From positions 1,309,501 through 1,373,500 of the forward strand of contig CM049319.1 of the NCBI GenBank assembly GCA_026874595.1: a DNA stretch of 64,000 bases, written 5' to 3'. Below the pieces are notes generated by a model, which worked only from the letters and a program-made list of their open reading frames with translations, did not search any database and had not been told where the DNA came from. Of this stretch, positions 2,737-60,959 are shown in pieces. The position numbers and the translations under genes were made by a program. The first letter of the stretch is position 1. Each line of letters begins with the position of its first letter. The stretch comes from Sipunculus nudus. Taxonomy: Eukaryota > Annelida > Sipuncula > Golfingiida > Sipunculidae.

Positions 2737-2862
2737 AAGGTGCATGTGAGCCTGTGTCAGCCCCGAGCGGGAGGAGAGAAGGCTATCAGTCTGGGAGAGA
2801 AGGCTTACAGGTGTCCGTATGAAGGCTGTGGCAGGCTCTATACAACATTTCATCATCTCAAG
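2737..2862 (+). CDS. ZNF143: ZNF143-type exon b: start of zinc finger 1
   Basis: Acceptor aacag and donor gtatgt; 42 codons in phase 0. It encodes [23 protein letters not shown], the two cysteines and helix of finger 1 up to the splice; the histidines come from the next exon (VHERSH). The 3' part of this exon together with its donor is repeated four more times in the following intron (2901-3310), in progressively decayed form. Confidence 0.92.
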
Positions 2863-3310
2863 GTATGTCAAATCTTACTTATACGTATGAAATATAAAGC
2901 CTGGGAGAGAAGGCTTACTTGTGTACATATGAAGTCTGTTGGAGGCTCTATACAACATTTCATCATCTCAAGGTATGTTAAATATTACATATACGTATCA
3001 AATATAAATACCTGGGAGAGAAGGCTTACTTGTGTACATATGAAGTCTGTGGAAGGCTCAAAACATTGTTTCATAATCTTAAAGTTTGTCATCTTACTAA
3101 TCAGTATAACAAGTATCAAATATAAAGCCTGTGGGAGAAGGCTGACTGGAGTCCATATGATGGCTGTGGTCAGGCTCTATACAACATTTCATCATCTCAA
3201 TGTATGTTAAATTTTATGAATATCAAATATAAAGCCTGTGGGAGAAGGCTGACTGGAGTCCATATGATGGCTGTGGTGGGCTCTGTAAAATGTTTCATCA
3301 CTTCAAGTTA
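2791..3310 (+). repeat. Tandem copies of the finger-1 exon tail plus donor (decayed exon copies)
   Basis: The real exon tail begins ctgggagagaagg at 2791. Copies follow at about 2901, 3012, 3127 and 3235 (period about 107-118 bp), each comprising exon tail and about 40 bp of intron. Copy 1 (2901-2972) still encodes a finger-like [18 protein letters not shown] and keeps a gtatgt donor. Copy 2 keeps the frame but has lost the donor (aagtttgt). Copies 3 and 4 have lost the first cysteine, and copy 3 also has a one-base insertion. None has a convincing acceptor, so I read them as non-coding relics. Confidence 0.88.
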
Positions 3311-3516
3311 TGCTTTCCTTATTGGAGTAATGTGGAGTGTTAGTAACAAAAAGAGAAGATTTCATCAGGATCTCACTTGTTATAAGCCAAGTTATAGGCT
3401 CAGGCATACAGGTGAATGGTTATATCAGAAGTGTCGAAACCTGTACATGTACCAAAACAGTGATTAAGCTGATAATTCATAGTCATGTACTTGTATTTTA
3501 ACAATTGTTATCTCAG

Positions 3517-3718
3517 GTACATGAGAGGTCCCACACAGGAGACAGACCGTTCAAATGCGAGTACCCGAGCTGTGAGAAGGCTTTTGCCACAGGTTACGGT
3601 CTTAAAAGCCACACACGTGTTCATACAGGGGAGAAACCTTACAAGTGCCCAGAGGAGTCATGTAACAAAGCATTCAAGACGTCCGGTGACCTGCAGAAAC
3701 ATATAAGGATACACACAG
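3517..3718 (+). CDS. ZNF143: ZNF143-type exon c: zinc fingers 1 (end), 2 and 3
   Basis: Acceptor ctcag before 3517; donor gtagga after 3718. It encodes [14 protein letters not shown], then finger 2 ([19 protein letters not shown]) and finger 3 ([19 protein letters not shown]), closing with the linker RIHTG split in phase 1. The bases of that last linker are the seed of the large tandem array that begins at the donor. Confidence 0.95.
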
Positions 3719-6478
3719 GTAGGATAAAACACACAGGTAAAGCAATATACACAGGTAGGGTTATACACAAAGGTAAAGTTATACACACAGGCAGAGTAAT
3801 ACACACAGGTGGGCAAAACTAACAGGTAAAGTTATACACACATGTTGGGTAATATATGCAGGTAGAGTTATATACACAGGAAGGGTAATACATGCAGGTA
3901 GAGTTATATACACAGGGAGGGTAAAACATGCAGGTAGAGTTATATACACAGGGAGGGTAATATATGCAGGTAGAGTTATATACACAGGGAGGGCAATACA
4001 TGCAGTAAGGGAAATACACACAGGTAGGGTAATACACACAGGTAGGGTAATACATGCACATAAAGTTATACACACAGGTTGGCAAAACACACAGCTAAAG
4101 TTATACACACATGTTGGGTAATACATGCAGGTAAAGTTATATACACAGGGAGGGTAATACATGCAGGTAGAGTTATATACACAGGGAGGGTAATACATGC
4201 AGGTAGAGTTATATACACAGGGAGGGCAATACATGCAGGTAGAGTTATATACACAGGCAGGGCAATACATGCAGGTAGTGTTATATACACAGGGAGGGTA
4301 ATACATGCAGGTAGAGTTATATACACAGGGAGGGTAATACATGCAGGTAGAGTTATATACACAGGGAGGGTAATACATGCAGGTAGAGTTATATACACAG
4401 GGAGGGTAATACATGTAGGTAGAGTTATATACACAGGGAGGGTAATACACGCAGGTAGAGTTATATACACAGGGAGGGTAATACATGCAGGTAGAGTTAT
4501 ATACACAGGGAGGGTAATACATGCAGGTAGAGTTATATACACAGGGAGGGTAATACATGCAGGTAGAGTTATATACACAGGGAGGGTAATACATGCAGGT
4601 AGAGTTATATACACAGGGAGGGTAATACATGCAGGTAGAGTTATATACACAGGGAGGGTAATACATGCAGGTAGAGTTATATACACAGGGAGGGTAATAC
4701 ATGCAGGTAGAGTTATATACAAAGGGAGGGCAATACATGCAGGTAGAGTTATATACACAGGGAGGGTAATACATGCAGGTAGAGTTATATACACAGGGAG
4801 GGTAATACACGCAGGCAGAGTTATATACACAGGGAGGGCAATACACGCAGGTAGAGTTATATACACAGGGAGGGTAATACATGCAGGTAGAGTTATATAC
4901 ACAGGGAGGGTAATACATGCAGGTAGAGTTATATACACAGGGAGGGTAATACATGCAGGTCGAGTTATATACACAGGGAAGGCAATACATGCAGGTAGAG
5001 TTATATACACAGGGAGGGCAATACATGCAGGTAGAGTTATATACAAAGGGAGGGCAATACATGCAGGTAGAGTTATATACACAGGGAGGGCAATACATGC
5101 AGGTAGAGTTATATACACAGGGAAGGCAATACATGCAGGTAGAGTTATATACACAGGGAGGGTAATACATGCAGGTAGAGTTATATACACAGGGAGGGTA
5201 ATACACGCAGGCAGAGTTATATACACAGGGAGGGCAATACACGCAGGTAGAGTTATATACACAGGGAGGGTAATACATGCAGGTAGAGTTATATACACAG
5301 GGAGGGTAATACATGCAGGTAGAGTTATATACACAGGGAGGGTAATACATGCAGGTAGAGTTATATACACAGGGAAGGCAATACATGCAGGTAGAGTTAT
5401 ATACACAGGGAGGGCAATACATGCAGGTAGAGTTATATACAAAGGGAGGGCAATACATGCAGGTAGAGTTATATACACAGGGAGGGCAATACATGCAGGT
5501 AGAGTTATATACACAGGGAAGGCAATACATGCAGGTAGAGTTATATACACAGGGAGGGCAATACATGCAGGTAGAGTTATATACACAGGGAGGGTAATAC
5601 ATGCAGGTAGATTTATATACACAGGGAGGGTAATACATGCAGGTAGAGTTATATACACAGGGAGGGTAATACATGCAGGTAGAGTTATATACACAGGGAG
5701 GGTAATACATGCAGGTAGAGTTATATACCAAGGAGGGTAATACATGCAGGTAGAGTTATATACCAAGGAGGGTAATACATGCAGGTAGAGTTATATACAC
5801 AGGGAGGGTAATACATGCAGGTAGAGTTATATACACAGGGAGGGTAATACATGCAGGTAGAGTTATATACACAGGGAGGGTAATACATGCAGGTAGAGTT
5901 ATATACACAGGGAGGGTAATACATGCAGGTAGAGTTATATACACAGGGAGGGTAATACATGCAGGTAGAGTTATATACACAGGGAGGGTAATACACGCAG
6001 GTAGAGTTATATACACAGGGAGGGTAATACACGCAGGTAGAGTTATATACACAGGGAGGGTAAAACACGCAGGTAGAGTTATATACACAGGGAGGGTAAA
6101 ACATGCAGGTAGAGTTATATACACAGGGAGGGTAAAACACGCAGGTAGAGTCATATACACAGGGAGGGTAAAACACGCAGGTAGAGTTATATACACAGGG
6201 AGGGTAATACATGCAGGTAGAGTTATATACACAGGGAGGGTAATACATGCAGGTAGAGTTATATACACAGGGAGGGCAATACATGCAGGTAGAGTTATAT
6301 ACACAGGGAGGGTAAAACATGCAGGTAGAGTTATATACACAGGGAGGGTAATACATGCAGGTAGAGTTATATACACAGGGAGGGTAATACATGCAGGTAG
6401 AGTTATATACACAGGGAGGGTAATACATGCAGGTAGAGTTATATACACAGGTAGGGTAATACACACAGGCAAGGTAGT
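3719..6478. repeat. Array A: 18/36-bp minisatellite starting at the exon c splice donor
   Basis: The intron opens with 18-bp units that each end in acacag or a close variant and are followed by gta, matching the last 18 bases of exon c plus its donor. Further in, the unit becomes a 36-bp dimer: one half begins gtagagtta and ends acacag, the other begins ggaggg and ends catgcag. There are about 75 dimers, with variants such as ataca-c-gcag and gggcaat clustering in blocks that point to secondary block duplication (for example 4,790-5,160 and 5,190-5,560). The unit is a multiple of three without stops, so frames stay open for hundreds of codons on both strands. In the host frame it reads as repeats of the zinc-finger linker (KHTG, IYTG, IHTG). 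Confidence 0.97.
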
Positions 6479-13935: not shown

Positions 13936-14083
13936 CTGAAACCTCCCTCAACTGAGTGCCACATGGAGATATTTATTTCAAATTAAGAATGTAAGTGACA
14001 GTAAATAAAAATGAAATAAACAGGGAAAGGTGCAACAGAATTATTGGAAATAACATCAGAACATATGTTTTGTTTTCCTGCAG

Positions 14084-20417: not shown

Positions 20418-20760
20418 CTGCAAAGTGATTAAAATCCACATTAATCTATTTATAAAAGTAAAAATGATATTTCTGAAGTGTCATCATAATACTGAAACTT
20501 CAACTTTACATCATTCTAATGACCAAGAGTCACATAAATGTCCATTCAAACCTAAGATAGTACAATTGTTGAAATTTTTAGATAACTGAAAAATTATTTT
20601 TAATGTCCATACGTACGGTATGTTTTGGTGAAGTTAATCCAAAATTCATTTAGATATATTTTACAGTGATGGTTTAAACTGGTGAGATCATTATTACATG
20701 ACTGGGTACCTCCAATAAACTGGTCCTACCAGCAGTTTGATTCCCCATTCCTCATAATAA

Positions 20761-21816: not shown

Positions 21817-21943
21817 GGCTGAGGTTGTGGTCAAAGTTATAATGGACTTTGAGGTATCGCTTGTGGCTTTCCCATTCCATCCCTGCCTTCTGCCAATGTT
21901 GATTGACCTCAGCATCTGGGATGTAGATGTCGTAGATACGAAC
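21817..21943 (-). CDS. Thrombospondin-like gene exon: end of LamG-like domain
   Basis: Acceptor tttacag, donor gtgagt, phase 0 in and 1 out. It begins VRIYDIYIPDAEVNQHW, the classic closing strand of LamG/concanavalin-like domains (DEVRIYDRAL type), then a charged segment ending YNFDHNLS. Its last 40 bases seed array B. Confidence 0.9.
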
Positions 21944-30799: not shown

Positions 30800-30972
30800 C
30801 TGATCATGCCGATGGACGGACGGTGGAAGACATACCACTTGTACGACGTACGACACTCCCAGCTGGCAAGAGCTGGGTCATGCCACAGGATCTTAACCTC
30901 ATTGGCTGTGTCAACAGTGTGCCACAACGCATCAGAGAGGGCAGCAGAGGGGCCAGATGCAGAGTCTACTAC
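30800..30972 (-). CDS. Thrombospondin-like gene exon: TSP C-terminal domain, middle
   Basis: Acceptor cttgtag, donor gtatgt, phase 0 in and 2 out. It encodes VVDSASGPSAALSDALWHT, then VKILWHDPALASWECRTSYK and WYVFHRPSIGMIR. This matches TSP_C (LWHTG, vrtLWHDP, yRW.l.HRP..G.IRV). The cysteine in WECRT is not in the classic pattern. Confidence 0.95.
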
Positions 30973-32266: not shown

Positions 32267-32494
32267 CTACAAGCATTGCTGTGACATTTGTGACCTCAAT
32301 TTGCCGTAGTTCTCGGCCCTGGTGTAGAACCTGCCAAGCTGGAGCCTTCATGCCGCCAGCTGGGTTGACGGTAATCTGTATGTTATCTTTCAGACTCGGT
32401 GTCTGCTTGAGTTTGTTACGAGGACAGTTGTCTAACTGATCGATGACTCCGTCTCCGTCATAGTCATTATCACAGGCGTCACCAACATGATTAC
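32267..32494 (-). CDS. Thrombospondin-like gene exon: last type 3 repeat and start of TSP C-terminal domain
   Basis: Acceptor tttcag, donor gtgagt, phase 1 both ends. It begins NHVGDACDNDYDGDGVIDQ and LDNCPRN (type 3 repeat). It continues MKAPAWQVLHQGRELRQIEV, which matches TSP_C (dPnWvv.hqGkElvqtvn). The classic cysteine of the NCDPGLAVG segment is replaced by NVTAMLVG, which creates a glycosylation sequon. Confidence 0.94.
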
Positions 32495-32837
32495 CTGAAA
32501 ATCACAAGTGACATAATTATACACACCTATGTCAAAATCTAACAGGTACATTTAATTTTAAGAATTTGTTCCAAAGACCCATCAGACAAGTTCTTAAATT
32601 TAAATTAAACAATTTCCTGCATCATCAACATAATTATCTGAAACAGACAGGTTACAATCTAAATTATATTCAAGTTTGTCTTTTTCTTAACAGATGAATA
32701 TAATTCTAAGACTTGGTTCGAAATGCCCATCAGACCAGTTGCTCAATTGACTAACAATATCCTGATAATCAACATGATTACGGGGAATATATGAGGTAAC
32801 CATAATATACACAGATATGTAGTATGACAGGATAATT

Positions 32838-34608: not shown

Positions 34609-34704
34609 CATTGGCGTCAGTCTGTGTAGGGTTCTGTATCAGCAGACAGTTGTCATTCTCATTCAGTACACCGTCATTATCCATGTCAGGGTCACAACCG
34701 TCAC
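34609..34704 (-). CDS. Thrombospondin-like gene exon: type 3 repeat
   Basis: Acceptor tttcag, donor gtatgt, phase 1 both ends. It encodes [20 protein letters not shown] followed by [13 protein letters not shown], a calcium-binding type 3 repeat (DxDxDGxxDxxDNC). Its last 31 bases seed array F. Confidence 0.94.
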
Positions 34705-37986: not shown

Positions 37987-38091
37987 CTTTTTACAACCTT
38001 CCTCAAGACATGACAGTGGTATAGTGACAATACCGTCTTGATCTGGATCCAGGCCACAGAGTTTCCCGTTCCCGGCCCAGCCATTATTGCA
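37987..38091 (-). CDS. Thrombospondin-like gene exon: end of EGF region, lead-in to type 3 repeats
   Basis: Acceptor tttcag, 35 codons in phase 0. It encodes CNNGWAGNGKLCGLDPDQDG and IVTIPLSCLEEGCKK. Classic thrombospondins have GyaGNGi.CGeDtDlDG and then HCKKDNCPN, so the junction CKK|DNCP fixes the exon end at 37,987, giving a GC-AG intron (aag|gcaggt). The nearest GT donor, four bases on, would break the frame. Confidence 0.87.
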
Positions 38092-42154: not shown

Positions 42155-42887
42155 TGTTGCATGGACGTCACCCGGACATCGGAAGATGGCGCCACGAAGT
42201 GGTGTGGCCGCCCCCGTTTCCACGCTTATGGATCCACCCCGCTATCAGTGACTACTGACGCACTTTTAGAAACATAAAAACTATTCTTGGACCATTCAGT
42301 ACTGGTTTTGCAGTTCTGCCGGCGCTATCGTTTCTCTCAAGCAAAACCACAAACTTCTGCGGTTTCCACCCATTGTTGAAAACCTATAAAAGAACTCGCC
42401 TGCAGTTCGAGGCGGGACTATTGACTTCGCCAACGCCACGTTGCTGTTATCCCCGGGGACCGTGACCGTGGGCTCTTGGTCCCCAAGCCCACGGAATGCC
42501 ATAAACCACGCCATGAACTTTATTATTTAGGAAGAGGAGAGACTTTATGTTTGTTTGGTGCCACATGGATTAATACAGGACTTCAGTTTTGTGTGTGCCC
42601 GAATTATGTGTTGATGATGGACTTCAGTTTCTCGTATACCGGATTCAGTTAAGTATTTCGTTACAGTTCGTTATTTAGAGACTCGGTTTTCGTCAGAGAC
42701 TTGGTTATAAATTACGTTATGTATTGACTATTATATTATTTGTGTATGAATGTAAATATTGTAATCTAGTAATATAGTACTGTTTTTGCACCCATATTTT
42801 GGTTACGTATTCATTTGAAGAGAACGTGTCTGAGCATATGTGTTACGGTTCGGCCTGAGTTGTTTGGTGTGAAAAGGGACCGTAACA
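42155..42887 (+). repeat. 5' LTR
   Basis: Begins TGTTGCATGG and ends GACCGTAACA. It carries a TATA-like cctataaaa. Near-identical to 48,092-48,825. Confidence 0.96.
42385..42391 (+). promoter_or_regulatory. TATA-like box of the 5' LTR
   Basis: TATAAAA in a plausible U3 position 230 bp into the LTR; the right LTR has the same at 48,322-48,328. Right-copy context is tataaaacg, left is tataaaag, one of the two LTR differences. Confidence 0.6.
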
Positions 42888-42890
42888 TAA

Positions 42891-42908
42891 TGGCGACCGC
42901 GACGAGAC
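42891..42908 (+). other. Primer-binding site
   Basis: TGGCGACCGCGACGAGAC, three bases after the 5' LTR. The leading TGG pairs with a tRNA CCA end. I did not identify the tRNA. Confidence 0.7.
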
Positions 42909-43045
42909 CCTGTATTTCGTAATAACGGCTACATTTGGATGTAAAATTTCACAGTGGTCTCTATAACTTCTAGGTATTGAACTAGTATTTAACTACAATT
43001 GAACTCGGATATTTCTCAGACACGTTATCTTGATACTTTGCAAAT

Positions 43046-46000
43046 ATGGGTACGGAATTTAAACCAAATGAAATTATACCACAATTAAGAGAAAATAGGA
43101 GCTTATTGTATACGTTAAAGAAAAATGAACTTGAAATTGTTGCTCTACATTTAAATATTGACATCATGGATGTATGCACTGTAGAGGGTTTAAGAAATGT
43201 ACTTAAGAAATCATTATATGGTGATGTAGAAAGTAAAGAGGAATCTGATTTGGAGGAAAAACCTATTAAGGAACCTCTTGGGGCAACGGCTATTGACCCG
43301 ATAGAACTAGAATTGAGAAAGTATGAACTTAAATTGAAATATGAAGCGGAAATCCGTAGATGTGAAATCGAAAGAGAAACGCAAATTAAGTTGAAAGAGT
43401 TAGAGTTACAAAATCCTCAAAATCGTAAAGCACATGAGCCGTCTGAATTCCTATTCAGAAATTCGACAAAAGTACCTCCCTTCAATGAAAATGAAGTGGA
43501 GCGTTATTTCAGTTATTTTGAACGGGTGGCCACTTTAATGGCTTGGCCTAAAGGCCAGTGGACCCTGTTGTTACAAAGCGTTCTGGTTGGTCGCGCACAG
43601 GACGTTTACACTGCGCTCACAGACCAACAATGCAGGGATTACGACACTGTAAAAGAGGTCATTCTGAGAGCCTATGAATTAGTCCCCGAAGCGTATCGCT
43701 TAAAATTTAGGAATGCCACCAAAAGAGAAAATCAATCTCATGTTGAATATGCTAGAGACAAAGAAAGTGCATTTAATAGATGGTGTCAGTCTATGAAAAT
43801 TGATCAGGACTTTGAAAAACTCAAACAACTAATTTTGATAGAAGAGTTCAAAAGGCATATCCGTAGTGACATTAAAATATTTTTGGATGAACATAAAGTA
43901 AGGAATGTAAACGAGGCTGGTGTCCTGGCAGATGAATTTGCCTTGACGCACCGCCCCAGTTATACCAGTCACAGGAGGAGGTATGGTGAGAAAAGAGAAG
44001 GTAGCAAAAGCCCAAAACTGGGTCGGAGAAAGGGTAGTCCCTACTATCGGGGTCACTCCGGCTCAGGTAAACCACAGTCCGATCATGGTAAACCCCAGTG
44101 TAAAAGTCAATCTGACTCTCCTGCTCAACATAAAGAGGGACAACCTAGGACTGGACCCAAATATTGTACATTCTGTGAGTTCAAGGGGCATACAGAATCT
44201 GAGTGTTACAGAAAAAGATACGGTCAAAGTAAGCCTAAACCTAATGCATTGACTGTTACGCAGAGCATGAAACCGGTAACAATGCCCAGTAAACTAGAGA
44301 CTAAAGGTGAAACACAAAGCCCTGTCCACGAGAGCTTTCAGCCCTTTGTGTCAGATGGCTTTGTTCAGTTAGAGGGTAACCATGCAAGAAAGGCCCGTGT
44401 TAAAATCTTAAGGGATACCGGGGCAACCCAAAGCCTCGTTTTGAAATCTGTTCTTCCCTTCTCTAAAGAGAGTTACGCGGGGTGTTCAGTTCTAGTCCAG
44501 GGCGTTAATTCGGAATTTTTAGAAGTTCCATTACACAGAGTGAAACTAGAATCTGATTTAGTCTCTGAATTTGTAACTGTAGGAGTTTGTTCAAAGTTGC
44601 CAGTAGAGGGCGTTTCGCTCCTCCTAGGCAACGATTTAGCTGGTGACAGAGTGAAAATTGATCCCAGAATGACAAAATTGCCGAGCACTGATAGGGACAC
44701 AGACCTGCTCCAGCAGGAGTTTCCGGGCGTATTTCCAGGCTGTGTAGTGACTCGAGCGATGAGTAAAAAGGCAAGTCTGAAACCAGAGAGTTCTGTACTT
44801 GACCTCTCGCAAACCTTTATGGCGCATTCTAACGATGACGTCAGTGGCTTAAAGCCCGTTACGCGAGTAAATATTAAATCGCCCGTATGTGACCCAAGTG
44901 GCACACCCAGTCCAAAGGACTCGACTACAAATGTAGTACAGGGCAAACAGACCCTGAATAGAAATCTCCAAAGGAGTACAAACGGCGTGAAATCGCCTGA
45001 TCAAAATGGGCATGAACAGTTAAAGAAGGATAGGAGTGTAAAGAATGTAGAAGTTAGCATGAAAACTGATGATTTGATAGAAATGCAAAAGAAAGATCCT
45101 GATATTGCCTCCCTTAGAGAAAATGCCTTGACTAAAGAGGAAGCAGATAAAGTTCCAACTTGTTTCACCTTACAGAATGATGTACTAGTCAGAAAATATA
45201 GACCTCCCACCACACCAGCGGACGAAACGTGGAATACTCTTTATCAAATTGTAGTTCCCCCCGAGTATCGCCCAGAAATCTTAAAACTTGCACATGATCA
45301 TCCTATGGCAGGACATTTGGGTGTCAGGAAAACCAAACACAAAATTCTCCAACACTTCTATTGGCCCAAGTTAAAACGAGACGTGGCGAAATACTGTAAA
45401 ACTTGTCATGTGTGTCAAATGATTGGAAAACCAACCCACCAAATTAGTCCTGCGCCACTCTCGCCCATACCAGCAACACATGATGCGTTTGAATCAGTAA
45501 TACTTGACTGTGTAGGACCGCTAAGAAAAACTAAACATGGCAATGAATATGTTCTAACAATCATGTGTACTGCAACTAGATTTCCAGAAGCAATTCCTCT
45601 TAGAACTATATCTGCAAAGAAAATTGTTGAAGCTCTGGTTAAATTTTTTACTACTTTTGGCTTACCAAGAACAATACAAACGGATCAAGGTTCAAATTTC
45701 ATGTCAAATATATTTGCCCAGGTTATGGAAGAGCTAGGCATAAAACACTACAAATCCAGTGCCTACCATCCTGAGAGTCAAGGTGCTCTAGAGCGATTTC
45801 ATCAAACTCTCAAAAACATGATTAGAGCTTATTGTCTTGACACTGGGAACCAGTGGGATGAGGGTTTACCCTTTTTGATATTTGCAGCCCGAGAAGCAGT
45901 GCAAGAAAGCTTAGGGTTTAGCCCTTTTGAATTAGTGTATGGGCACTGTGTAAGAGGCCCCCTGGCGGTGTTAAAAGACACTTGGATCGAAAACAGTTCT

Positions 46001-47857
46001 CAAAGTAGCTTGTTAAAATATGTTCAGGAATTCAAGGAGAAATTAAGTAGGGCAAATGAAATCGCCCAAGAACATTTAAAGAAAGCCCAAAACAAAATGA
46101 AAGTATGGTATGACAAAAAGACGACAAAAAGAGAATTTAAACCTGGTGATAAAGTTCTGGTATTATTCCCAATTCCAGGACATCCCCTGCAAGCAAAATA
46201 CTCTGGACCATACAAAGTTGTTGAGAAGAAATCAGATTTGAATTATGTGATTGATACTCCTGATCGTAGAAAGTCGCATCAACTTTGTCATATAAATATG
46301 TTGAAAGAATATCATGACAGATCAGCAGAAACATGTCAATCTAGTCCTCCCCAAACAAATTTGATACTCATTAAAGAAACTGAAAAGAATGCCGAGGATA
46401 TTCTCATGAAGAAAACTGAACATCCTGTAAAACTGAACAACTCTGATATTTTAAATAATTTAGATCAGAAATTGTCACATTTGGATTTCGATCAGTTATC
46501 AGAGTTGAAGGAAATCCTGCTAAATTATGACTCTTTATTTCCTGATGTCCCCAGTAGAACTAATGTACTACAGCATGATGTAGACGTAGGAGATGCTTCC
46601 CCTATTAAACAGGCACCATATAGAGCTGGTCCCCAAAAGTTACAAGCCATAAAGAATGAAATCAAGTATATGATAGAGAATGATATTATTGAAAACAGCA
46701 GTAGTGCCTGGAGTTCCCCATGTTTGTTGATAAAGAAGCCTGATATGACCTACAGATTTTGTACAGACTATCGAAAAGTTAACACTGTAACAATAACAGA
46801 TACTTACCCTTTGCCCAGAGTGGAAGATTGCATTGATAAGATTGGATCTGCTACGTATATTAGCAAGTTAGATCTGTTGAAAGGTTATTGGCAGGTACCT
46901 CTTACCGAACGGGCTAAGCAAATATCTGCGTTTGTAACGCCAAACGGTTTGTTCCAGTACAAAGTTATGCCCTTCGGAATGAAAAATGGGCCAGCCTGCT
47001 TCATGAGACTTATGAATTGTGTATTATCTGGCTTAGATAACTGTACTTGCTATATTGATGATGTTGTTGTATACAATCACATATGGGAAGATCATAAACA
47101 AAGTTTGGTAGAACTCTTTGAGAGACTGAAAAAAGCAGGATTGACAGTTAATCTTGCCAAGAGTGATTTTTGTCGTGCAACTGTAACATATTTAGGGCAC
47201 GAAGTAGGTCAAGGTTGTGTAAAACCAATTGCCAGTAAAGTATCTGCTATCGTAGAATTTCCAGTTCCTACTAATCGCAAGGAACTAATGCGATTCTTAG
47301 GAATGACTGGGTATTACAGGAAATTTTGTCAAAACTTTGCAGAAGTTGTAAATCCGTTAACGGACCTATTGAAAAAGGACAGAAAATTCCATTGGAATAA
47401 AAACTGTCAAAATGCTTTTGAAAGAGCCAAAGCTATATTACAAAGTGCACCTGTGTTACAGGCTCCAAATTTTGATAAACCGTTTTCTCTCATGACGGAT
47501 GCCAGCGATTGCGGTGTAGGCGCTGTGCTCATCCAAGACGATGACTTTAACATAAGTCATCCGGTTTGCTACTATTCAAAGAAATTTTTACCTCGTCAAA
47601 AGAATTATTCTACTATTGAAAAGGAAACTCTGTCACTATTGATGGCGTTACAGCACTTTGAAGTATATTTGGGCTCTACGCCGTATGATATAACTGTTTA
47701 TACAGATCATAATCCCATAACATTTCTTCATAAGATGAAGAATAATAATCAGAGATTAATGAGATGGAGTCTAGCCCTGTCAGAGTTTAACCTAGTTATC
47801 AAACACATCAAGGGCTCCGATAACATAATCGCTGATACGTTATCGAGACGTCATTAA
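43046..47857 (+). CDS. Gag-Pol polyprotein of the Gmr1-type retrotransposon
   Basis: One uninterrupted 1,603-residue frame, with no gag-pol frameshift. Gag occupies about residues 1-400 with a charged segment near 75-130 and a CCHC zinc knuckle (CTFCEFKGHTESEC) near 374. An aspartic protease-like DTGATQS lies near 456. Integrase has the HHCC zinc site (about 748-790), catalytic Asp near 820 (LDCVGP), Asp near 879 (TDQGSNF) and Glu near 915 (ALERFHQ), with a GPY/F-type end (KYSGPYKVV, about 1,050). RT follows, with LDLLKGYWQVPL near 1,280 and catalytic YIDDVV near 1,335. RNase H has TDASDCGVGAVL near 1,483, Glu in TIEKETL and Asp in VYTDHNP; the frame ends IADTLSRRH. All catalytic motifs look intact. 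No envelope frame. The first ATG after the PBS is used. Confidence 0.95.
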   Translation: MGTEFKPNEIIPQLRENRSLLYTLKKNELEIVALHLNIDIMDVCTVEGLRNVLKKSLYGDVESKEESDLEEKPIKEPLGATAIDPIELELRKYELKLKYEAEIRRCEIERETQIKLKELELQNPQNRKAHEPSEFLFRNSTKVPPFNENEVERYFSYFERVATLMAWPKGQWTLLLQSVLVGRAQDVYTALTDQQCRDYDTVKEVILRAYELVPEAYRLKFRNATKRENQSHVEYARDKESAFNRWCQSMKIDQDFEKLKQLILIEEFKRHIRSDIKIFLDEHKVRNVNEAGVLADEFALTHRPSYTSHRRRYGEKREGSKSPKLGRRKGSPYYRGHSGSGKPQSDHGKPQCKSQSDSPAQHKEGQPRTGPKYCTFCEFKGHTESECYRKRYGQSKPKPNALTVTQSMKPVTMPSKLETKGETQSPVHESFQPFVSDGFVQLEGNHARKARVKILRDTGATQSLVLKSVLPFSKESYAGCSVLVQGVNSEFLEVPLHRVKLESDLVSEFVTVGVCSKLPVEGVSLLLGNDLAGDRVKIDPRMTKLPSTDRDTDLLQQEFPGVFPGCVVTRAMSKKASLKPESSVLDLSQTFMAHSNDDVSGLKPVTRVNIKSPVCDPSGTPSPKDSTTNVVQGKQTLNRNLQRSTNGVKSPDQNGHEQLKKDRSVKNVEVSMKTDDLIEMQKKDPDIASLRENALTKEEADKVPTCFTLQNDVLVRKYRPPTTPADETWNTLYQIVVPPEYRPEILKLAHDHPMAGHLGVRKTKHKILQHFYWPKLKRDVAKYCKTCHVCQMIGKPTHQISPAPLSPIPATHDAFESVILDCVGPLRKTKHGNEYVLTIMCTATRFPEAIPLRTISAKKIVEALVKFFTTFGLPRTIQTDQGSNFMSNIFAQVMEELGIKHYKSSAYHPESQGALERFHQTLKNMIRAYCLDTGNQWDEGLPFLIFAAREAVQESLGFSPFELVYGHCVRGPLAVLKDTWIENSSQSSLLKYVQEFKEKLSRANEIAQEHLKKAQNKMKVWYDKKTTKREFKPGDKVLVLFPIPGHPLQAKYSGPYKVVEKKSDLNYVIDTPDRRKSHQLCHINMLKEYHDRSAETCQSSPPQTNLILIKETEKNAEDILMKKTEHPVKLNNSDILNNLDQKLSHLDFDQLSELKEILLNYDSLFPDVPSRTNVLQHDVDVGDASPIKQAPYRAGPQKLQAIKNEIKYMIENDIIENSSSAWSSPCLLIKKPDMTYRFCTDYRKVNTVTITDTYPLPRVEDCIDKIGSATYISKLDLLKGYWQVPLTERAKQISAFVTPNGLFQYKVMPFGMKNGPACFMRLMNCVLSGLDNCTCYIDDVVVYNHIWEDHKQSLVELFERLKKAGLTVNLAKSDFCRATVTYLGHEVGQGCVKPIASKVSAIVEFPVPTNRKELMRFLGMTGYYRKFCQNFAEVVNPLTDLLKKDRKFHWNKNCQNAFERAKAILQSAPVLQAPNFDKPFSLMTDASDCGVGAVLIQDDDFNISHPVCYYSKKFLPRQKNYSTIEKETLSLLMALQHFEVYLGSTPYDITVYTDHNPITFLHKMKNNNQRLMRWSLALSEFNLVIKHIKGSDNIIADTLSRRH

Positions 47858-48091
47858 TTTTGATCTGATGATTGCCTCTTGTTATAGCCTCGGACATGTT
47901 TTGTCCTTTGGAAGAGTTGTATTACATATATTACATGTATTAAGATATTGCTGATTATACTATTTGTGATGATGATAATTAATTAGCTGTAAGAAGCATA
48001 AACTAATGCTTAAGATGTCAAACTACTCATATACTCGTCATACAGTGCTAATGCTTTGCTCTCCTTACCTTCTTTCTTTTAAGGGTGGGGG
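47858..48091 (+). other. 3' untranslated part of the retrotransposon with polypurine tract
   Basis: Non-coding. The last eleven bases (48,081-48,091, aagggtggggg) form the polypurine tract directly before the 3' LTR. Confidence 0.75.
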
Positions 48092-48825
48092 TGTTGCATG
48101 GACGTCACCCGGACATCGGAAGATGGCGCCACGAAGTGGTGTGGCCGCCCCCGTTTCCACGCTTATGGATCCACCCCGCTATCAGTGACTACTGACGCGC
48201 TTTTAGAAACATAAAAACTATTCTTGGACCATTCAGTACTGGTTTTGCAGTTCTGCCGGCGCTATCGTTTCTCTCAAGCAAAACCACAAACTTCTGCGGT
48301 TTCCACCCATTGTTGAAAACCTATAAAACGAACTCGCCTGCAGTTCGAGGCGGGACTATTGACTTCGCCAACGCCACGTTGCTGTTATCCCCGGGGACCG
48401 TGACCGTGGGCTCTTGGTCCCCAAGCCCACGGAATGCCATAAACCACGCCATGAACTTTATTATTTAGGAAGAGGAGAGACTTTATGTTTGTTTGGTGCC
48501 ACATGGATTAATACAGGACTTCAGTTTTGTGTGTGCCCGAATTATGTGTTGATGATGGACTTCAGTTTCTCGTATACCGGATTCAGTTAAGTATTTCGTT
48601 ACAGTTCGTTATTTAGAGACTCGGTTTTCGTCAGAGACTTGGTTATAAATTACGTTATGTATTGACTATTATATTATTTGTGTATGAATGTAAATATTGT
48701 AATCTAGTAATATAGTACTGTTTTTGCACCCATATTTTGGTTACGTATTCATTTGAAGAGAACGTGTCTGAGCATATGTGTTACGGTTCGGCCTGAGTTG
48801 TTTGGTGTGAAAAGGGACCGTAACA
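48092..48825 (+). repeat. 3' LTR
   Basis: Begins TGTTGCATGG and ends GACCGTAACA, followed by the target duplication acct. One base longer than the 5' LTR. Confidence 0.96.
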
Positions 48826-49876
48826 ACCTCTACACGTGTACCCTGGCTCACACTGAGTACAGGTGGTTGGACAGTGTGTTACTTACCTACATGACCATCA
48901 GACCACGTTCCCTCTGTACACTAGTACCGCTGTCCACCTCTACACGTGTACCCTGGCTCACACTGAGTACAGGTGGTTGGACAGTGTGTTACTTACCTAC
49001 ATGACCATCAGACCACGTTCTCTCTGTACACTAGTACCACTGTCCACCTCTACACGCGTACCCTGGCTCACACTGAGTACAGGTGGTTGGACAGTGTGTT
49101 ATTTACCTACATGACCATCAGACCATGTTCCCTCTGTACACTAGTACCACTGTCCACCTCTACACGTGTACCCTGGCTCACACTGAGTACAGGTGGTTGG
49201 ACAGTGTGTTATTTACCTACATGACCATCAGACCATGTTCCCTCTGTACACTGGTACTGCTGTCCACCTCTACACGTGTACCCTGGCTCACACTGAGTAC
49301 AGGTGGTTGGACAGTGTGTTATTTACCTACATGACCATCAGACCACGTTCCCTCTGTACACTGGTACTGCTGTCCACCTCTACATGCGTACCCTGGCTCA
49401 CACTGAGTACAGGTGGTTGGACAGTGTGTTACTTACCTACATGACCATCAGACCACACTCCCTCTGTACACTAGTACCGCTGTCCACCTCTACACGCGTA
49501 CCCTGGCTCACACTGAGTACAGGTGGTTGGACAGTGTGTTACTTACCTACATGACCATCAGACCACGTTCCCTCTTTACACTAGTACCGCTGTCCACCTC
49601 TACACGCGTACACTGGCTCACACTGAGTACAGGTGGTTGGACAGTGTGTTACTTACCTACATGACCATCAGACCACGTTCCCTCTGTACACTGGTACCGC
49701 TGTCAACCTCTACACGCGTACCCTGGATCACACTGAGTACAGGTGGGTGGACAGTGTTTTACTTACCTACATGACCATCAGACAACATTCCCTCTGTACA
49801 CAAGTAATGCTGTCCACCTCTACACGCGTACACTGGCTCACACTGAGTACAGGTGGTTGGACAGTGTGTTACTTAC
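48826..49876. repeat. Array G, donor-proximal part: 110-bp repeat (about 9-10 units)
   Basis: Continues the same 110-bp register from the retrotransposon to the donor of exon 49877-50039. It resumes at acctctacac, the exact continuation of the unit interrupted at 42,154. Each unit holds catgtag|gtaagt. Confidence 0.96.
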
Positions 49877-50039
49877 CTACATGACCATCAGACCACGTTC
49901 CCTCTGTACACTGGTACCGCTGTCCACCTCTACACGCATACCCTGGCTCACACTGAGTACAGGTGGTTGGACAGTATGTGCCGTTACATTCTGAATATGT
50001 TGTTGGTTCACACTTTGTAGCGTAGCCATCATGGCAAAT
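49877..50039 (-). CDS. Thrombospondin-like gene exon: cysteine-rich region (parent of array G)
   Basis: Acceptor taacag, donor gtaagt, phase 0 in and 1 out. It encodes ICHDGYATKCEPTTYSEC, then NGTYCPTTCTQCEPGYACRG and GQRYQCTEGTWSDGHV. Cysteine-rich, GCC2/GCC3- or EGF-like. I chose the donor nearest the unique exon part. About 102 bases of its tail form the unit of array G. Confidence 0.88.
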
Positions 50040-51122: not shown

Positions 51123-51445
51123 TGATAAAACAGTTGTTATGTCACAATAGGTCGATGAAGTGGGCATGCAGAGGGAGCGAAATTTGGTGTATTATTTTAT
51201 AAGAGTTATGTACAGTATTTTTATAAACATTCATACCCTTCAATAATTCAATTATGATTCATTCAACGAAGACATTTTCATAATTTTTTAAGAATCAAAT
51301 TGACCAAGGTCTACAAGGTCTACAAGGTCTACAATCAAACTACAAGGTCTGTGAGAAATGATTCTTTAATTATGTTCAATTCATTGAGCTGTGAGGAGAT
51401 CGAGTTCTGAATATAACTTTGCAAAGTAATACACTTTAACTAATT

Positions 51446-51644
51446 AACTGTTTCTGTGTTTTAAAAAAGATTGGCTTGGTTTCTGTATTATTTATAATGA
51501 TTATACAATAATCCACATTGAATTTATGCTCAAACATTGTTTCTGTGTTTTAACTGTTTCTGTGTTTTAAAAAAGATTGGCTTGGTTTCTGTATTATTTA
51601 TAATGATTATACAATAATCCACATTGAATTTATGCTCAAACATT
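51446..51644. repeat. Twofold direct repeat, 106-bp period
   Basis: The segment from aactgtttctgtgtttt to tttatgctcaaacatt occurs twice. On the host (-) strand it starts about 8 bases after the donor of exon 51653-51809, so it is donor-adjacent but contains no exon sequence. Confidence 0.93.
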
Positions 51645-51652
51645 TGACTTAC

Positions 51653-52894: not shown

Positions 52895-55800
52895 ACAGTG
52901 TGTACTGCATGTACTGACATGTAAACTGTAACCTGGGAGAGTAGTCATGTTGATTCTGCCTCGGTCCGGTTTACAGTGTGTACTGTATAGGATTACTGAC
53001 ATGTGAACTGTACCTGGGAGAGTAGTCATGTTGATTCTGCCTCGGTCCGGATTACAGTGTGTACTGTATAGGATTACTGACATGTGAACTGTACCTGGGA
53101 AAGTAGTTATGTTGATTCTGCCTCGGTCCGGTTTACAGTGTGTACTGTATAGGATTACTGACATGTGAACTGTACCTGGGAGAGTAGTCATGTTGATTCT
53201 GCCTCTGTCCGGTTTACAGTGTGTACTGTATAGGATTACTGACATGTGAACTGTACCTGGGAGAGTAGTCATGTTGATTCTGCCTCTGTCCGGTTTACAG
53301 TGTGTACTGTATAGGATTACTGACATGTGAACTGTACCTGGGAGAGTAGTCATGTTGATTCTGCCTCTGTCGGGTTTACAGTGTGTACTGTATAGGATTA
53401 CTGACATGTAAACTGTACCTGGGAGAGTAGTCATGTTGATTCTGCCTCGGTCTGGTTTACAGTGTGTACTGTATAGGATTACTGACATGTGAACTGTACC
53501 TGGGAGAGTAGTCATGTTGATTCTGCCTCGGTCTGGTTTACAGTGTGTACTGTATAGGATTACTGACATGTGAACTGTACCTGGGAGAGTAGTCATGTTG
53601 ATTCTGCCTCGGTCCAGTTTACAGTGTGTACTGTATAGGATTACTGACATGTGAACTGTACCTGGGAGAGTAGTCATGTTGATTCTGCCTCTGTCCGGTT
53701 TACAGTGTGTACTGTATAGGATTACTGACATGTGAACTGTACCTGGGAGAGTAGTCATGTTGATTCTGCCTCTGTCCGGTTTACAGTGTGTACTGTATAG
53801 GATTACTGACATGTAAACTGTACCTGGGAGAGTAGTCATGTTGATTCTGCCTCGGTCTGGTTTACAGTGTGTACTGTATAGGATTACTGACATGTAAGCT
53901 GTAACCTGGGAGAGTAGTCATGTTGATTCTGCCTCCGTCCGGTTTACAGTGTGTACTGTATAGGATTACTGACATGTAAACTGTACCTGGGAGAGTAGTC
54001 ATGTTGATTCTGCCTAGGTCCGGTTTACAGTGTGTACTGTATAGGATTACTGACATGTAAACTGTACCTGGGAGAGTAGTCATGTTGATTCTGCCTCGGT
54101 CCGGTTTACAGTGTGTACTGTATAGGATTACTGACATGTAAGCTGTAACCTGGGAGAGTAGTCATGTTGATTCTGCCTCCGTCCGGTTTACAGTGTGTAC
54201 TGTATAGGATTACTGACATGTAAACTGTACCTGGGAGAGTAGTCATGTTGATTCTGCCTAGGTCCGGTTTACAGTGTGTACTGTATAGGATTACTGACAT
54301 GTAAACTGTACCTGGGAGAGTAGTCATGTTGATTCTGCCTAGGTCCGGTTTACAGTGTGTACTGTATAGGATTACTGACATGTAAACTGTACCTGGGAGA
54401 GTAGTCATGTTGATTCTGCCTCGGTCCGGTTTACAGTGTGTACTGTATAGGATTACTGACATGTAAACTGTACCTGGGAGAGTAGTCATGTTGATTCTGC
54501 CTCGGTCCGGTTTACAGTGTGTACTGTATAGGATTACTGACATGTAAACTGTACCTGGGAGAGTAGTCATGTTGATTCTGCCTCGGTCCGGTTTACAGTG
54601 TGTACTGTATAGGATTACTGACATGTAAACTGTACCTGGGAGAGTAGTCATGTTGATTCTGCCTCGTCCGGTTTACAGTGTGTACTGTATAGGATTACTG
54701 ACATGTAAACTGTACCTGGGAGAGTAGTCATGTTGATTCTGCCTCGGTCCGGTTTACAGTGTGTACTGTATAGGATTACTGACATGTAAACTGTACCTGG
54801 GAGAGTAGTCATGTTGATTCTGCCTCGGTCCGGTTTACAGTGTGTACTGTATAGGATTACTGACATGTAAACTGTACCTGGGAGAGTAGTCATGTTGATT
54901 CTGCCTCGGTCCAGTTTACAGTGTGTACTGTATAGGATTACTGACATGTAAACTGTACCTGGGAGAGTAGTCATGTTGATTCTGCCTCGGTCCGGTTTAC
55001 AGTGTGTACTGTATAGGATTACTGACATGTAAACTGTACCTGGGAGAGTAGTCATGTTGATTCTGCCTTGGTCCGGTTTACAGTGTGTACTGTATAGGAT
55101 TACTGACATGTAAACTGTACCTGGGAGAGTAGTCATGTTGATTCTGCCTTGGTCCGGTTTACAGTGTGTACTGTATAGGATTACTGACATGTAAACTGTA
55201 CCTGGGAGAGTTAATAAGTCATGTTGATTCTGCCTAGGTCCAGTTTACAGTGTGTACTGTATAGGATTACTGACATGTAAACTGTACCTGGGGGAGTAGT
55301 CATGTTGATTCTGCCTCGGTCCGGTTTACAGTGTGTACTGTATAGGATTACTGACATGTAAACTGTACCTGGGAGAGTAGTCATGTTGATTCTGCCTAGG
55401 TCCGGTTTACAGTGTGTACTGTATAGGATTACTGACATGTAAACTGTACCTGGGAGAGTAGTCATGTTGATTCTGCCTAGGTCCGGTTTACAGTGTGTAC
55501 TGTATAGGATTACTGACATGTAAACTGAACCTGGGAGAGTAGTCATGTTGATTCTGCCTCGGTCCGGTTTACAGTGTGTACTGTATAGGATTACTGACAT
55601 GTAAACTGAACCTGGGAGAGTAGTCATGTTGATTCTGCCTCGGTCCGGTTTACAGTGTGTACTGTATAGGATTACTGACATGTAAACTGTACCTGGGAGA
55701 GTAGTCATGTTGATTCTGCCTCGGTCCGGTTTACAGTGTGTAATGTATAGGATTACTGACATGTAAACTGTACCTGGGAGAGTAGTCATGTTGATTCTGC

Positions 55801-58800
55801 CTCGGTCCGGTTTACAGTGTGTACTGTATAGGATTACTGACATGTAAACTGTACCTGGGAGAGTAGTCATGTTGATTCTGCCTCGGTCCGGTTTACAGTG
55901 TGTACTGTAAAGGATTACTGACATGTAAACTGTACCTGGGAGAGTAGTCATGTTGATTCTGCCTCGGTCCAGTTTACAGTGTGTACTGTATAGGATTACT
56001 GATATGTAAACTGTACCTGGGAGAGTAGTCATGTTGATTCTGCCTCGGTCCAGTTTACAGTGTGTACTGTATAGGATTACTGACATGTAAACTGTAACCT
56101 GGGAGAGTAGTCATGTTGATTCTGCCTCGGTCCGGTTTACAGTGTGTACTGTATAGGATTACTGACATGTAAGCTGTAACCTGGGAGAGTAGTCATGTTG
56201 ATTCTGCCTCGGTCCGGTTTACAGTGTGTACTGTATAGGATTACTGACATGTAAACTGTACCTGGGAGAGTAGTCATGTTGATTCTGCCTTGGTCCGGTT
56301 TACAGTGTGTACTGTATAGGATTACTGACATGTAAACTGTACCTGGGAGAGTAGTCATGTTGATTCTGCCTCGGTCCGGTTTACAGTGTGTACTGTATAG
56401 GATTACTGACATGTAAACTGTACCTGGGAGAGTAGTCATGTTGATTCTGCCTCGGTCCGGTTTACAGTGTGTACTGTATAGGATTACTGACATGTAAGCT
56501 GTAACCTGGGAGAGTAGTCATGTTGATTCTACCTCGGTCCGGTTTACAGTGTGTACTGTATAGGATTACTGACATGTAAACTGTACCTGGGAGAGTAGTC
56601 ATGTTGATTCTGCCTCGGTCCGGTTTACAGTGTGTACTGTATAGGATTACTGACATGTAAACTGTACCTGGGAGAGTAGTCATGTTGATTCTGCCTCGGT
56701 CCGGTTTACAGTGTGTACTGTATAGGATTACTGACATGTAAACTGTACCTGGGAGAGTAGTCATGTTGATTCTGCCTCGGTCCGGTTTACAGTGTGTACT
56801 GTATAGGATTACTGACATGTAAACTGTACCTGGGAGAGTAGTCATGTTGATTCTACCTCGGTCCGGTTTACAGTGTGTACTGTATAGGATTACTGACATG
56901 TAAACTGTACCTGGGAGAGTAGTCATGTTGATTCTGCCTCGGTCTCGTTTACAGTGTGTACTGTATAGGATTACTGACATGTAAACTGTACCTGGGAGAG
57001 TAGTCATGTTGATTCTGCCTCGGTCCGGTTTACAGTGTGTACTGTATAGGATTACTGACATGTAAACTGTACCTGGGAGAGTAGTCATGTTGATTCTGCC
57101 TCGGTCCGGTTTACAGTGTGTACTGTATAGGATTACTGACATGTAAACTGTACCTGGGAGAGTAGTCATGTTGATTCTGCCTCGGTCCAGTTTACAGTGT
57201 GTACTGTATAGGATTACTGACATGTAAACTGTACCTGGGAGAGTAGTCATGTTGATTCTGCCTCGGTCCGGTTTACAGTGTGTACTGTATAGGATTACTG
57301 ACATGTGAACTGTACCTGGGAGAGTAGTCATGTTGATTCTGCCTAGGTCCGGTTTACAGTGTGTACTGTATAGGATTACTGACATGTAAACTGTACCTGG
57401 GAGAGTAGTCATGTTGATTCTGCCTAGGTCCAGTTTACAGTGTGTACTGTATAGGATTACTGACATGTAAACTGTACCTGGGAGAGTTGTCATGTTGATT
57501 CTGCCTAGGTCCAGTTTACAGTGTGTACTGTATAGGATTACTGACATGTAAACTGTACCTGGGAGAGTTGTCATGTTGATTCTGCCTCGGTCCAGTTTAC
57601 AGTGTGTACTGTATAGGATTACTGACATGTAAACTGTACCTGGGAGAGTAGTCATGTTGATTCTGCCTCGGTCCAGTTTACAGTGTGTACTGTATAGGAT
57701 TACTGACATGTAAACTGTACCTGGGAGAGTAGTCATGTTGATTCTGCCTCGGTCCGGTTTACAGTGTGTACTGTATAGGATTACTGACATGTAAACTGTA
57801 CCTGGGAGAGTAGTCATGTTGATTCTGCCTCGGTCCGGTTTACAGTGTGTACTGTATAGGATTACTGACATGTAAACTGTACCTGGGAGAGTTGTCATGT
57901 TGATTCTGCCTCGGTCCGGTTTACAGTGTGTACTGTATAGGATTACTGACATGTGAACTGTACCTGGGAGAGTAGTCATGTTGATTCTGCCTCGGTCCGG
58001 TTTACAGTGTGTACTGTAAGGATTACTGACATGTGAACTGTACCTGGGAGAGTAGTCATGTTGATTCTGCCTCGGTCCGGTTTACAGTGTGTACTGTATA
58101 GGATTACTGACATGTAAACTGTACCTGGGAGAGTAGTCATGTTGATTCTGCCTCGGTCCGGTTTACAGTGTGTACTGTATAGGATTACTGACATGTAAAC
58201 TGTACCTGGGAGAGTAGTCATGTTGATTCTGCCTAGGTCCGGTTTACAGTGTGTACTGTATAGGATTACTGACATGTAAACTGTACCTGGGAGAGTAGTC
58301 ATGTTGATTCTGCCTAGGTCCGGTTTACAGTGTGTACTGTATAGGATTACTGACATGTGAACTGTACCTGGGAGAGTAGTCATGTTGATTCTGCCTCGGT
58401 CCGGTTTACAGTGTGTACTGTATAGGATTACTGACATGTAAACTGAACCTGGGAGAGTAGTCATGTTGATTCTGCCTAGGTCCAGTTTACAGTGTGTACT
58501 GTATAGGATTACTGACATGTAAACTGAACCTGGGAGAGTAGTCATGTTGATTCTGCCTAGGTCCAGTTTACAGTGTGTACTGTATAGGATTACTGACATG
58601 TAAACTGAACCTGGGAGAGTAGTCATGTTGATTCTGCCTAGGTCCAGTTTACAGTGTGTACTGTATAGGATTACTGACATGTGAACTGTACCTGGGAGAG
58701 TAGTCATGTTGATTCTGCCTAGGTCCAGTTTACAGTGTGTACTGTATAGGATTACTGACATGTGAACTGTACCTGGGAGAGTAGTCATGTTGATTCTGCC

Positions 58801-60959
58801 TAGGTCCAGTTTACAGTGTGTACTGTATAGGATTACTGACATGTGAACTGTACCTGGGAGAGTAGTCATGTTGATTCTGCCTCGGTCCGGTTTACAGTGT
58901 GTACTGTATAGGATTACTGACATGTAAACTGTACCTGGGAGAGTAGTCATGTTGATTCTGCCTCGGTCCGGTTTACAGTGTGTACTGTATAGGATTACAG
59001 ACATGTGAACTGAACCTGGGAGAGTAGTCATGTTGATTCTGCCTCGGTCCGGTTTACAGTGTGTACTGTATAGGATTACTGACATGTAAACTGAACCTGG
59101 GAGAGTAGTCATGTTGATTCTGCCTCGGTCCGGTTTACAGTGTGTACTGTATAGGATTACTGACATGTAAACTGAACCTGGGAGAGTAGTCATGTTGATT
59201 CTGCCTCGGTCCGGTTTACAGTGTGTACTGTATAGGATTACTGACATGTAAACTGAACCTGGGAGAGTAGTCATGTTGATTCTGCCTCGGTATGGTTTAC
59301 AGTGTGTACTGTATAGGATTACTGACATGTAAACTGAACCTGGGAGAGTAGTCATGTTGATTCTGCCTCGGTCCGGTTTACAGTGTGTACTGTATAGGAT
59401 TACTGACATGTAAACTGAACCTGGGAGAGTAGTCATGTTGATTCTGCCTCGGTCCGGTTTACAGTGTGTACTGTATAGGATTACTGACATGTGAACTGAA
59501 CCTGGGAGAGTAGTCATGTTGATTCTGCCTCGGTCCGGTTTACAGTGTGTACTGTATAGGAAAACTGACATGTAAACTGAACCTGGGAGAGTAGTCATGT
59601 TGATTCTGCCTCGGTCCGGTTTACAGTGTGTACTGTATAGGATTACTGACAAGTAAACTGTACCTGGGAGAGTAGTCATGTTGATTCTGCCTCGGTCCGG
59701 TTTACAGTGTGTACTGTATAGGATTACTGACATGTAAACTGTACCTGGGAGAGTAGTCATGTTGATTCTGCCTCGGTCCGGTTTACAGTGTGTACTGTAT
59801 AGGATTACTGACATGTAAACTGAACCTGGGAGAGTAGTCATGTTGATTCTGCCTCGGTCCGGTTTACAGTGTGTACTGTATAGGATTACTGACATGTAAA
59901 CTGAACCTGGGAGAGTAGTCATGTTGATTCTGCCTCGGTCCGGTTTACAGTGTGTACTGTATAGGATTACTGACATGTGAACTGTACCTGGGAGAGTAGT
60001 CATGTTGATTCTGCCTCGGTCCGGTTTACAGTGTGTACTGTATAGGATTACTGACATGTGAACTGAACCTGGGAGAGTAGTCATGTTGATTCTGCCTCGG
60101 TCCGGTTTACAGTGTGTACTGTATAGGATTACTGACATGTGAACTGAACCTGGGAGAGTAGTCATGTTGATTCTGCCTCGGTCCGGTTTACAGTGTGTAC
60201 TGTATAGGATTACTGACATGTAAACTGAACCTGGGAGAGTAATTATGTTGATTCTGCCTCGGTCCAGTTTACAGTGTGTACTGTATAGGATTACTGACAT
60301 GTAAACTGAACCTGGGAGAGTAATTATGTTGATTCTGCCTCGGTCCGGTTTACAGTGTGTACTGTATAGGATTACTGACATGTAAACTGAACCTGGGAGA
60401 GTAATTATGTTGATTCTGCCTCAGTCCGGTTTACAGTGTGTACTGTATAGGATTACTGACATGTAAACTGTACTTGGGAGAGTAGTCATGTTGATTCTGC
60501 CTCGGTCCGGTTTACAGTGAGTACTGTATAGGATTACTGACAAGTAAACTGTACCTGGGAGAGTAGTCATGTTGATTCTGCCTAGGTCCAGTTTACAGTG
60601 TGTACTGTATAGGATTACTGACATGTAAACTGAACCTGGGAGAGTAGTCATGTTGATTCTGCCTAGGTCTGGTTTACAGTGAGTACTGTATAGGATTACT
60701 GACAAGTAAACTGTACCTGGGAGAGTAGTCATGTTGATTCTGCCTAGGTCCAGTTTACAGTGTGTACTGTATAGGATTACTGACATGTAAACTGAACCTG
60801 GGAGAGTAGTCATGTTGATTCTGCCTAGGTCCAGTTTACAGTGTGTACTGTATAGGATTACTGACATGTGAACTGTACCTGGGAGAGTAGTCATGTTGAT
60901 TCTGCCTAGGTCCAGTTTACAGTGTGTACTGTATAGGATTACTGACATGTAAACTGTAC
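52895..60959. repeat. Array H: 81-bp minisatellite of about 100 units starting at a splice donor
   Basis: 8.1 kb adjoining exon 60960-61079. On the - strand each unit opens gtacagtttacatgtcag (donor and intron part), continues with about 40 bases matching the exon tail (from gtaaaccggaccgaggc) and ends actactctcccag. Every unit therefore rebuilds cccag|gtacag. At 81 bp (27 codons) without stops, units run on in the frame of the host exon, which yields the open stretches on this strand. The first stop in frame is a CGA-to-TGA change near 60,424, after about six or seven units. Units carry an NMT sequon. Variants (gtgaactg, gaacctg, taggtcc, cagttta) cluster in blocks. Confidence 0.97.

Follow-up and report, generated by a model that had tools for sequence, protein, structure and literature searches.

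The 64-kb stretch of DNA analysed here (the window; contig CM049319.1, positions 1,309,501 to 1,373,500) carries two host genes on opposite strands, in agreement with the earlier note on it: a relative of ZNF143/ZNF76 on the + strand, whose exons were joined in a single frame, and, on the - strand, a gene for a large extracellular protein, here called gene B. Nine arrays of tandem repeats were returned by Tandem Repeats Finder (TRF; period of at least 15, at least four copies), at the places where they had already been noticed, and seven of them overlap a 5' splice site (donor), the exceptions being the arrays with 53- and 122-bp periods. Along the transcription strand, each of the seven starts in the tail of a coding exon and repeats a unit made of exon tail, donor and intron head, with the remainder of the array sitting within the following intron. 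These donor arrays are real and strongly non-random in the window, and they belong to an already known type of structure. The window was chosen for its odd look, and the P values given below describe it and not the genome; exon ends were set from reading frames and orthologues, with no basis in RNA.

In the ZNF143/ZNF76-like gene, array A110z (2791-3312, + strand) contains 4.7 copies of a 110-bp unit, with approximately 72 nt of exon tail and 38 nt of intron (shares read, for all units, from the TRF edges), and is found at the donor AAG/GTATGT of the exon at 2737..2862. The second array, A18/36 (3709-6469, + strand), at the donor CAG/GTAGGA of the exon at 3517..3718, is composed of 18-bp units (approximately 10 nt of exon and 8 nt of intron) with a 36-bp higher-order unit. 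The other five belong to gene B and are read on the - strand: A47 (20757-21857; 23.4 copies of 47 bp, approximately 41 nt of exon and 6 nt of intron), at the donor GCC/GTGAGT of exon 21817..21943; A59 (26294-30806; approximately 78 copies of 59 bp, approximately 7 nt of exon and 52 nt of intron), at the donor CAG/GTATGT of exon 30800..30972; A37 (34122-34639; 14.1 copies of 37 bp, approximately 31 nt of exon and 6 nt of intron), at the donor ATG/GTATGT of exon 34609..34704, which encodes a thrombospondin type-3 repeat; A110 (40474-42154 and 48826-49979; 15.3 and 10.5 copies of 110 bp, approximately 26 in all, approximately 103 nt of exon and 7 nt of intron), at the donor TAG/GTAAGT of the cysteine-rich exon 49877..50039; and A81 (52912-61001; 99.8 copies of 81 bp, approximately 42 nt of exon and 39 nt of intron), at the donor CAG/GTACAG of exon 60960..61079, where the discoidin-type region starts. 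The last exon bases at the array-bearing donors are thus 2862 and 3718 (+) and 21817, 30800, 34609, 49877 and 60960 (-). Both intron-only arrays are in gene B (- strand), one at 22334-23385 (19.9 copies of 53 bp), approximately 270 nt past the donor at 23654, and the other at 32837-33447 (5.0 copies of 122 bp); the copies of the latter match at 100%, which points to a recent origin, and it adjoins the old acceptor-side duplication described below.

The consensus units of the seven donor arrays are mutually unrelated, as had been claimed, no pair reaching a local alignment score of 24. TRF matches are between 80 and 97%, falling to 65% if the second array is taken in 18-bp units. The proposal that these arrays replicate the donor holds, whereas their starting exactly at the junction does not, as the starts lie 7-103 nt inside the exon. 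Moreover, units with only 6-8 intron bases are found in four arrays (18, 47, 37 and 110 bp) and not in three, as previously counted. Such near donor-only units (intron share of at most 8 nt) would be expected 1.25 times, which gives P(>=4) = 0.016 in a post hoc test, or P = 0.03, likewise post hoc, when the 18-bp array is left out. In the 37- and 81-bp arrays, the final copy stops past the donor; in the 47-bp array and the 110-bp array of gene B, it stops while still in exon-derived sequence. There is no general polarity along the arrays, since Spearman p is below 0.05 in only two of the seven, both with the more divergent copies on the exon side.

The exon ends are supported by several observations. 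On the + strand, the zinc-finger frame runs on across both arrays: the end of exon 2737..2862 was placed by continuity of frame with the next exon and by homologues, and that of exon 3517..3718 by the frame RIHTG/ERPFKC. In gene B, for four of the five arrays, the alignment with an orthologue breaks at the array and resumes in the next exon beyond it. P0121 aligns at 860-919 as far as 30793 and continues in the next exon at 26056, and at 158-209 as far as 49881, continuing at 40022; P0124 is matched as far as 21827 and resumes at 20442 (a weak match, E 0.02), and P0122 (149-186; also weak, E 0.33) passes from 60970 to 52530, the phase being in agreement. For exon 34609..34704 the orthologue alignment is ambiguous owing to the thrombospondin type-3 repeats, and its phase fits the next exon at 32494.

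The association of arrays with donors had been proposed from the appearance of the sequence, and it goes far beyond chance within the window. After collapsing the arrays, 35.8 kb were left, with 28 modelled donors and 29 modelled acceptors (these counts exclude two donors of gene B, an acceptor, and the exons near 24.3 kb and at 20.4 kb). Nine randomly placed units would be expected to cover 0.48 donors and 0.50 acceptors; seven of the nine arrays cover a donor (binomial P ~4e-8), and seven or more random units fell on donors 0 times in 200,000 trials. In a wider set of 13 loci (TRF score of at least 50, period of at least 15), seven are on donors (P = 7e-7). A quarter of the modelled donors (7/28) carry an array, and none of the nine arrays is interior to an exon. 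From target size alone, intron-only arrays should be approximately 15 times as frequent as donor arrays, whereas two were observed against seven. Considering only the classes expected to be tolerated, the donor share should be 6%, and the observed excess is 54-fold (P ~1e-7), or 21-fold for the 13 loci (P = 1.7e-6). A perfect 106-bp tandem duplication of 1.9 copies was also noticed at 51444-51644, which starts 9 nt after the donor at 51653 and does not include it; when it is added, the donor excess over intron-only arrays is 34-fold. We scanned the other 21 donors for low-copy duplications, and none at p <=0.1 crosses the junction.

It had also been stated that no array touches an acceptor. 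This is true for the nine arrays, but a degenerate tandem duplication in gene B with a period of approximately 143 (32476..32780, - strand), which escaped TRF, very probably spans an acceptor, that of the exon whose first base is 32494. Its intronic copies, 32780-32646 and 32636-32503, align with a score of 105 (the maximum of 500 shuffles was 59), and where the second copy begins (TTTCAG followed by ATAATTATGTTGATGA from 32637) it can be aligned with the authentic acceptor and the exon bases right after it at a score of 44, for which 300 shuffles gave a 99th percentile of 36 and a maximum of 46. The case is made by these two alignments jointly: in blind scans of the 29 acceptors, the duplication was among the four and five at p <=0.1, with p of 0.044 and 0.045 for itself, which, taken alone, is at chance level for 29 tests.

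Boundary-spanning arrays of this kind are known in amphioxus as 'mirages', a name reportedly introduced by Canestro and others in 2002. The earlier note, which knew of no description of such 'donor satellites', was mistaken in this respect. In the portions available, the amphioxus papers describe minisatellite-like tandem duplications of exon/intron boundaries, both 5' and 3', with units from 10-72 bp (Adh3) to approximately 160 bp (globin) and unstable lengths, and regular splicing in spite of them, inferred from their own and Adh3 data (PMC3087553); in PGBD5, the first copies of repeats of 60 and 108 bp abut 5' splice sites, and troponin C is mentioned (PMC3902484). The mirage genes named in these portions are Adh3, the globins BflGb6 and BflGb9, troponin C and PGBD5, and many copies, although not all, keep the AG/GT signals (PMC3087553, PMC3902484). 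A paper on amphioxus VCBP also mentions, as data not shown, intronic copies that resemble exons and carry splice sites (PMC2632668).

The arrays of the window resemble mirages in that, given the exon ends proposed here, the repeat unit crosses the exon/intron boundary, and in the unrelated, minisatellite-size units at separate loci (18-110 bp here). They differ in extent, as the amphioxus arrays have 2-7 copies where these are counted in the available text, whereas here there are up to approximately 100 copies and 8 kb. They differ also in the boundaries involved, both of them according to the passages available on amphioxus, and here seven donors in one window with one degenerate acceptor case, and, it seems, in the host, lancelets in those passages and probably a lophotrochozoan here. 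Other known systems are less similar. Tandem duplication of AGGT-containing sequence also multiplies splice sites, but what is described in the available part of that work is an exonic duplication that creates an intron (PMC3443670), whereas here introns hold many copies; the two splice sites of the intron do not both come from the duplicated segment here, the modelled next-exon acceptors lying outside the arrays. In earthworm metallothionein genes, large minisatellites occupy an intron of an annelid gene, although the accessible text states no exon boundary for their units (PMC12783039). Outside lancelets, we recognised no boundary-spanning arrays in the portions of the literature that could be covered (including PMC7931591, PMC12783039 and PMC4732748), a weak negative, given that subscription papers were mostly uncovered.

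The affiliation of the host was considered through its two genes. For the ZNF143/ZNF76-like gene, among the 120 matches listed of 6723, the top two are gastropod proteins (66% identity over 87%), and the vertebrate ZNF143/ZNF76 rows listed have higher identity but with less of the length covered (87% over 56%); lancelet ZNF143 is absent from these 120 matches, possibly owing to the length filter. In a tree of 17 chosen rows, the protein of the window joins six molluscs with support of 89/90, which is not decisive, and its union with three vertebrate rows in one clade was rejected by the approximately unbiased (AU) test (p = 0.005). A tree of 33 rows places it among lophotrochozoans, in an unresolved group (84/89). 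Pieces of gene B match EGF-, ephrin-receptor-like and laminin-G-type Pfam models, and its closest relatives are four proteins from bivalves (41-43% identity over 83-100%) and one from a tubeworm (47% over 63%), the domains of which, judging by accession, we take to be discoidin-type, thrombospondin type-3 and C-terminal, EGF and laminin-G. Among the matches listed, those of lancelets to gene B are partial, with at most 37% identity over at most 26% of the query. A lancelet host, considered at first in view of the mirage literature, was given up after the homologues of both genes and the 17-row tree, and the host is taken to be a probable mollusc or some other lophotrochozoan. The boundary-spanning arrays described here are thus probably those of a new lineage, and of unusual density and length. 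If so, a lancelet curiosity is extended to probably another phylum, and what was known from individual genes becomes a locally dense pattern. A quantitative puzzle is also posed, as intron interiors would be expected to host most arrays and donors do so instead. Donor-linked tandem duplication would bear on intron growth, on intron gain and on how the spliceosome chooses among dozens of near-identical donors.

We consider it probable that the arrays are minisatellites that arose from tandem duplications spanning exon/intron boundaries, of the amphioxus mirage kind, favoured near donors and tolerated there. A local duplication across the junction, through microhomology or replication slippage, would spare the first donor and leave the coding sequence unchanged, and splicing at the 5'-most donor would yield a normal mRNA; the array could then expand and homogenise by unequal exchange or slippage. 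Acceptor-spanning duplications would perhaps be rarer, as the upstream acceptor copy would be used and the exon lengthened. The earlier note had left the choice between a mechanism that seeds duplication at these junctions and mere survival. Tandem duplication could in fact be uniform and the donor-spanning events simply harmless, with no hotspot, in line with the intact first donor in 7/7 arrays, the absence of exon-interior arrays (0/9) and the single, degenerate acceptor-spanning duplication. Nevertheless, intron-only duplications should be no less harmless and have approximately 15 times the target, and yet only two of the nine arrays are of this class; we therefore regard survival as the sole cause as unlikely. 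This leaves a bias in seeding or expansion, and duplication or expansion would be favoured near donors if rates were otherwise uniform, because intron-only arrays are far below the target-size prediction. A stronger proposal, which we hold only tentatively and as doubtful, is that exon/donor junctions are a true hotspot of satellite birth in this lineage, independent of lancelets, with seeding perhaps tied to the 5' splice site or to transcription and splicing there; a quarter of the modelled donors carry an array, and in four of the seven units the intron part is only 6-8 bases long, approximately the span that pairs with U1.

Several points weigh against tolerated, donor-favoured duplication of the mirage kind. 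The asymmetry between donors and acceptors, with p = 0.016 for 7:0, is weak (7:1, p = 0.07) once the duplication of approximately 143 bp is counted. The placement test takes rates of duplication to be uniform and relies on incomplete gene models, and the evidence for a donor bias comes from a single window. A physical cause of a donor bias was looked for and not found: there is no shared fold (two of the nine sequences beat all 200 shuffles, both with inputs of more than one unit), and GC skew of the R-loop kind has no common sign (three arrays positive, four negative). Finally, placing the ZNF143/ZNF76-like protein of the window among deuterostomes was not rejected (p = 0.117), in a set with no lancelet row. 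The donor copies might otherwise be functional, as decoys of the U1 small nuclear ribonucleoprotein or as regulators of splicing or premature polyadenylation under selection, and GT is indeed retained in 305 of the 314 scorable later copies of the seven arrays (with the 36-bp unit counted in the GT phase only). Divergence in the GT columns, however, is not significantly below that of other column pairs (Stouffer p = 0.12), and the same is true of the 9-base donor (Stouffer p = 0.54). In the 36-bp consensus (3709-6469), one donor is kept (CAG/GTAGAG) and the other is lost (CAG/GGAGGG), so that every second one has GG and not GT. In 7/7 arrays the mean donor score of the later copies is at or below that of the authentic donor. 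Donor strength does not appear to be a cause either, as array-bearing donors have 8.0 bits (n = 7) and the others 7.4 (n = 21; p = 0.54) by the scoring matrix used here. The suggestion that arrays of competing donors act on splicing is therefore unsupported; nothing indicates that the copies are maintained as splice sites, and we consider a function for them very improbable. If translation ran on from the exon into the intron, a stop codon would be met after 2 codons in A110, 4 in A37, 18 in A59, 24 in A47 and 34 in A18/36, and much later in A110z (115 codons) and A81 (179 codons).

A further explanation would be that the unit edges are dual-specific AGGT sites, serving both as donor and as acceptor, and that the arrays undergo unit-by-unit trimming or are intermediates of intron gain. 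The human UBC and VCX3A tandem arrays, whose units carry an AGGT site, offer a parallel, and introns spliced in this way are enriched in human tandem repeats, as far as the available text of that study goes (PMC10809524); AG/GT is present at five of the seven authentic array donors, and two of the unit lengths, 81 and 36 bp, are divisible by three. The UBC array, however, is coding and its site is used both ways, according to the same accessible text (PMC10809524), whereas two of the seven arrays here have no AG/GT at the authentic donor, with no AG before the GT in the 37- and 47-bp arrays. AG/GT in five of seven array donors is no clear excess over 11 of the 21 others, and the modelled next-exon acceptors fall outside the arrays; this explanation seems to us little more probable than a function of the copies. 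Wrong exon ends or assembly errors could in principle have produced the pattern, as long arrays are difficult to assemble and the exon ends lack a transcript basis. We give this hardly any credence, considering that, beyond four of the five arrays of gene B, the orthologues pick up again in the following exon, that the zinc-finger frame is unbroken across both + strand arrays, that the units vary inside the arrays, and that two genes on opposite strands both carry arrays. Tolerated duplication across exon/intron boundaries, favoured near donors, thus remains the preferred reading.

A few other features of the window can be mentioned. In gene B, the exon at 37983-38091 has no GT donor in the required phase, and a GC-AG donor, AAG/GCAGGT, would fit. 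Array A110 is split by a Gypsy-type long terminal repeat (LTR) retrotransposon on the + strand (42155..48825, edges approximate), with direct repeats of 237 and 300 nt that are 100% identical and with AGGT on both flanks; because an element with identical direct repeats sits within it, A110 would predate this recent insertion. Among the matches listed for the reverse transcriptase of the element, the closest named ones are from a bivalve-symbiont bin, a freshwater mussel and a limpet (65-67%), and further ones from a ciliate, a sea cucumber, a coral and a carp (61-63%). One region of the element matches the Pfam SCAN model. Scans of the window with Rfam (gathering threshold) and for tRNAs gave no matches. 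A run of 19 C is present at 521-539.

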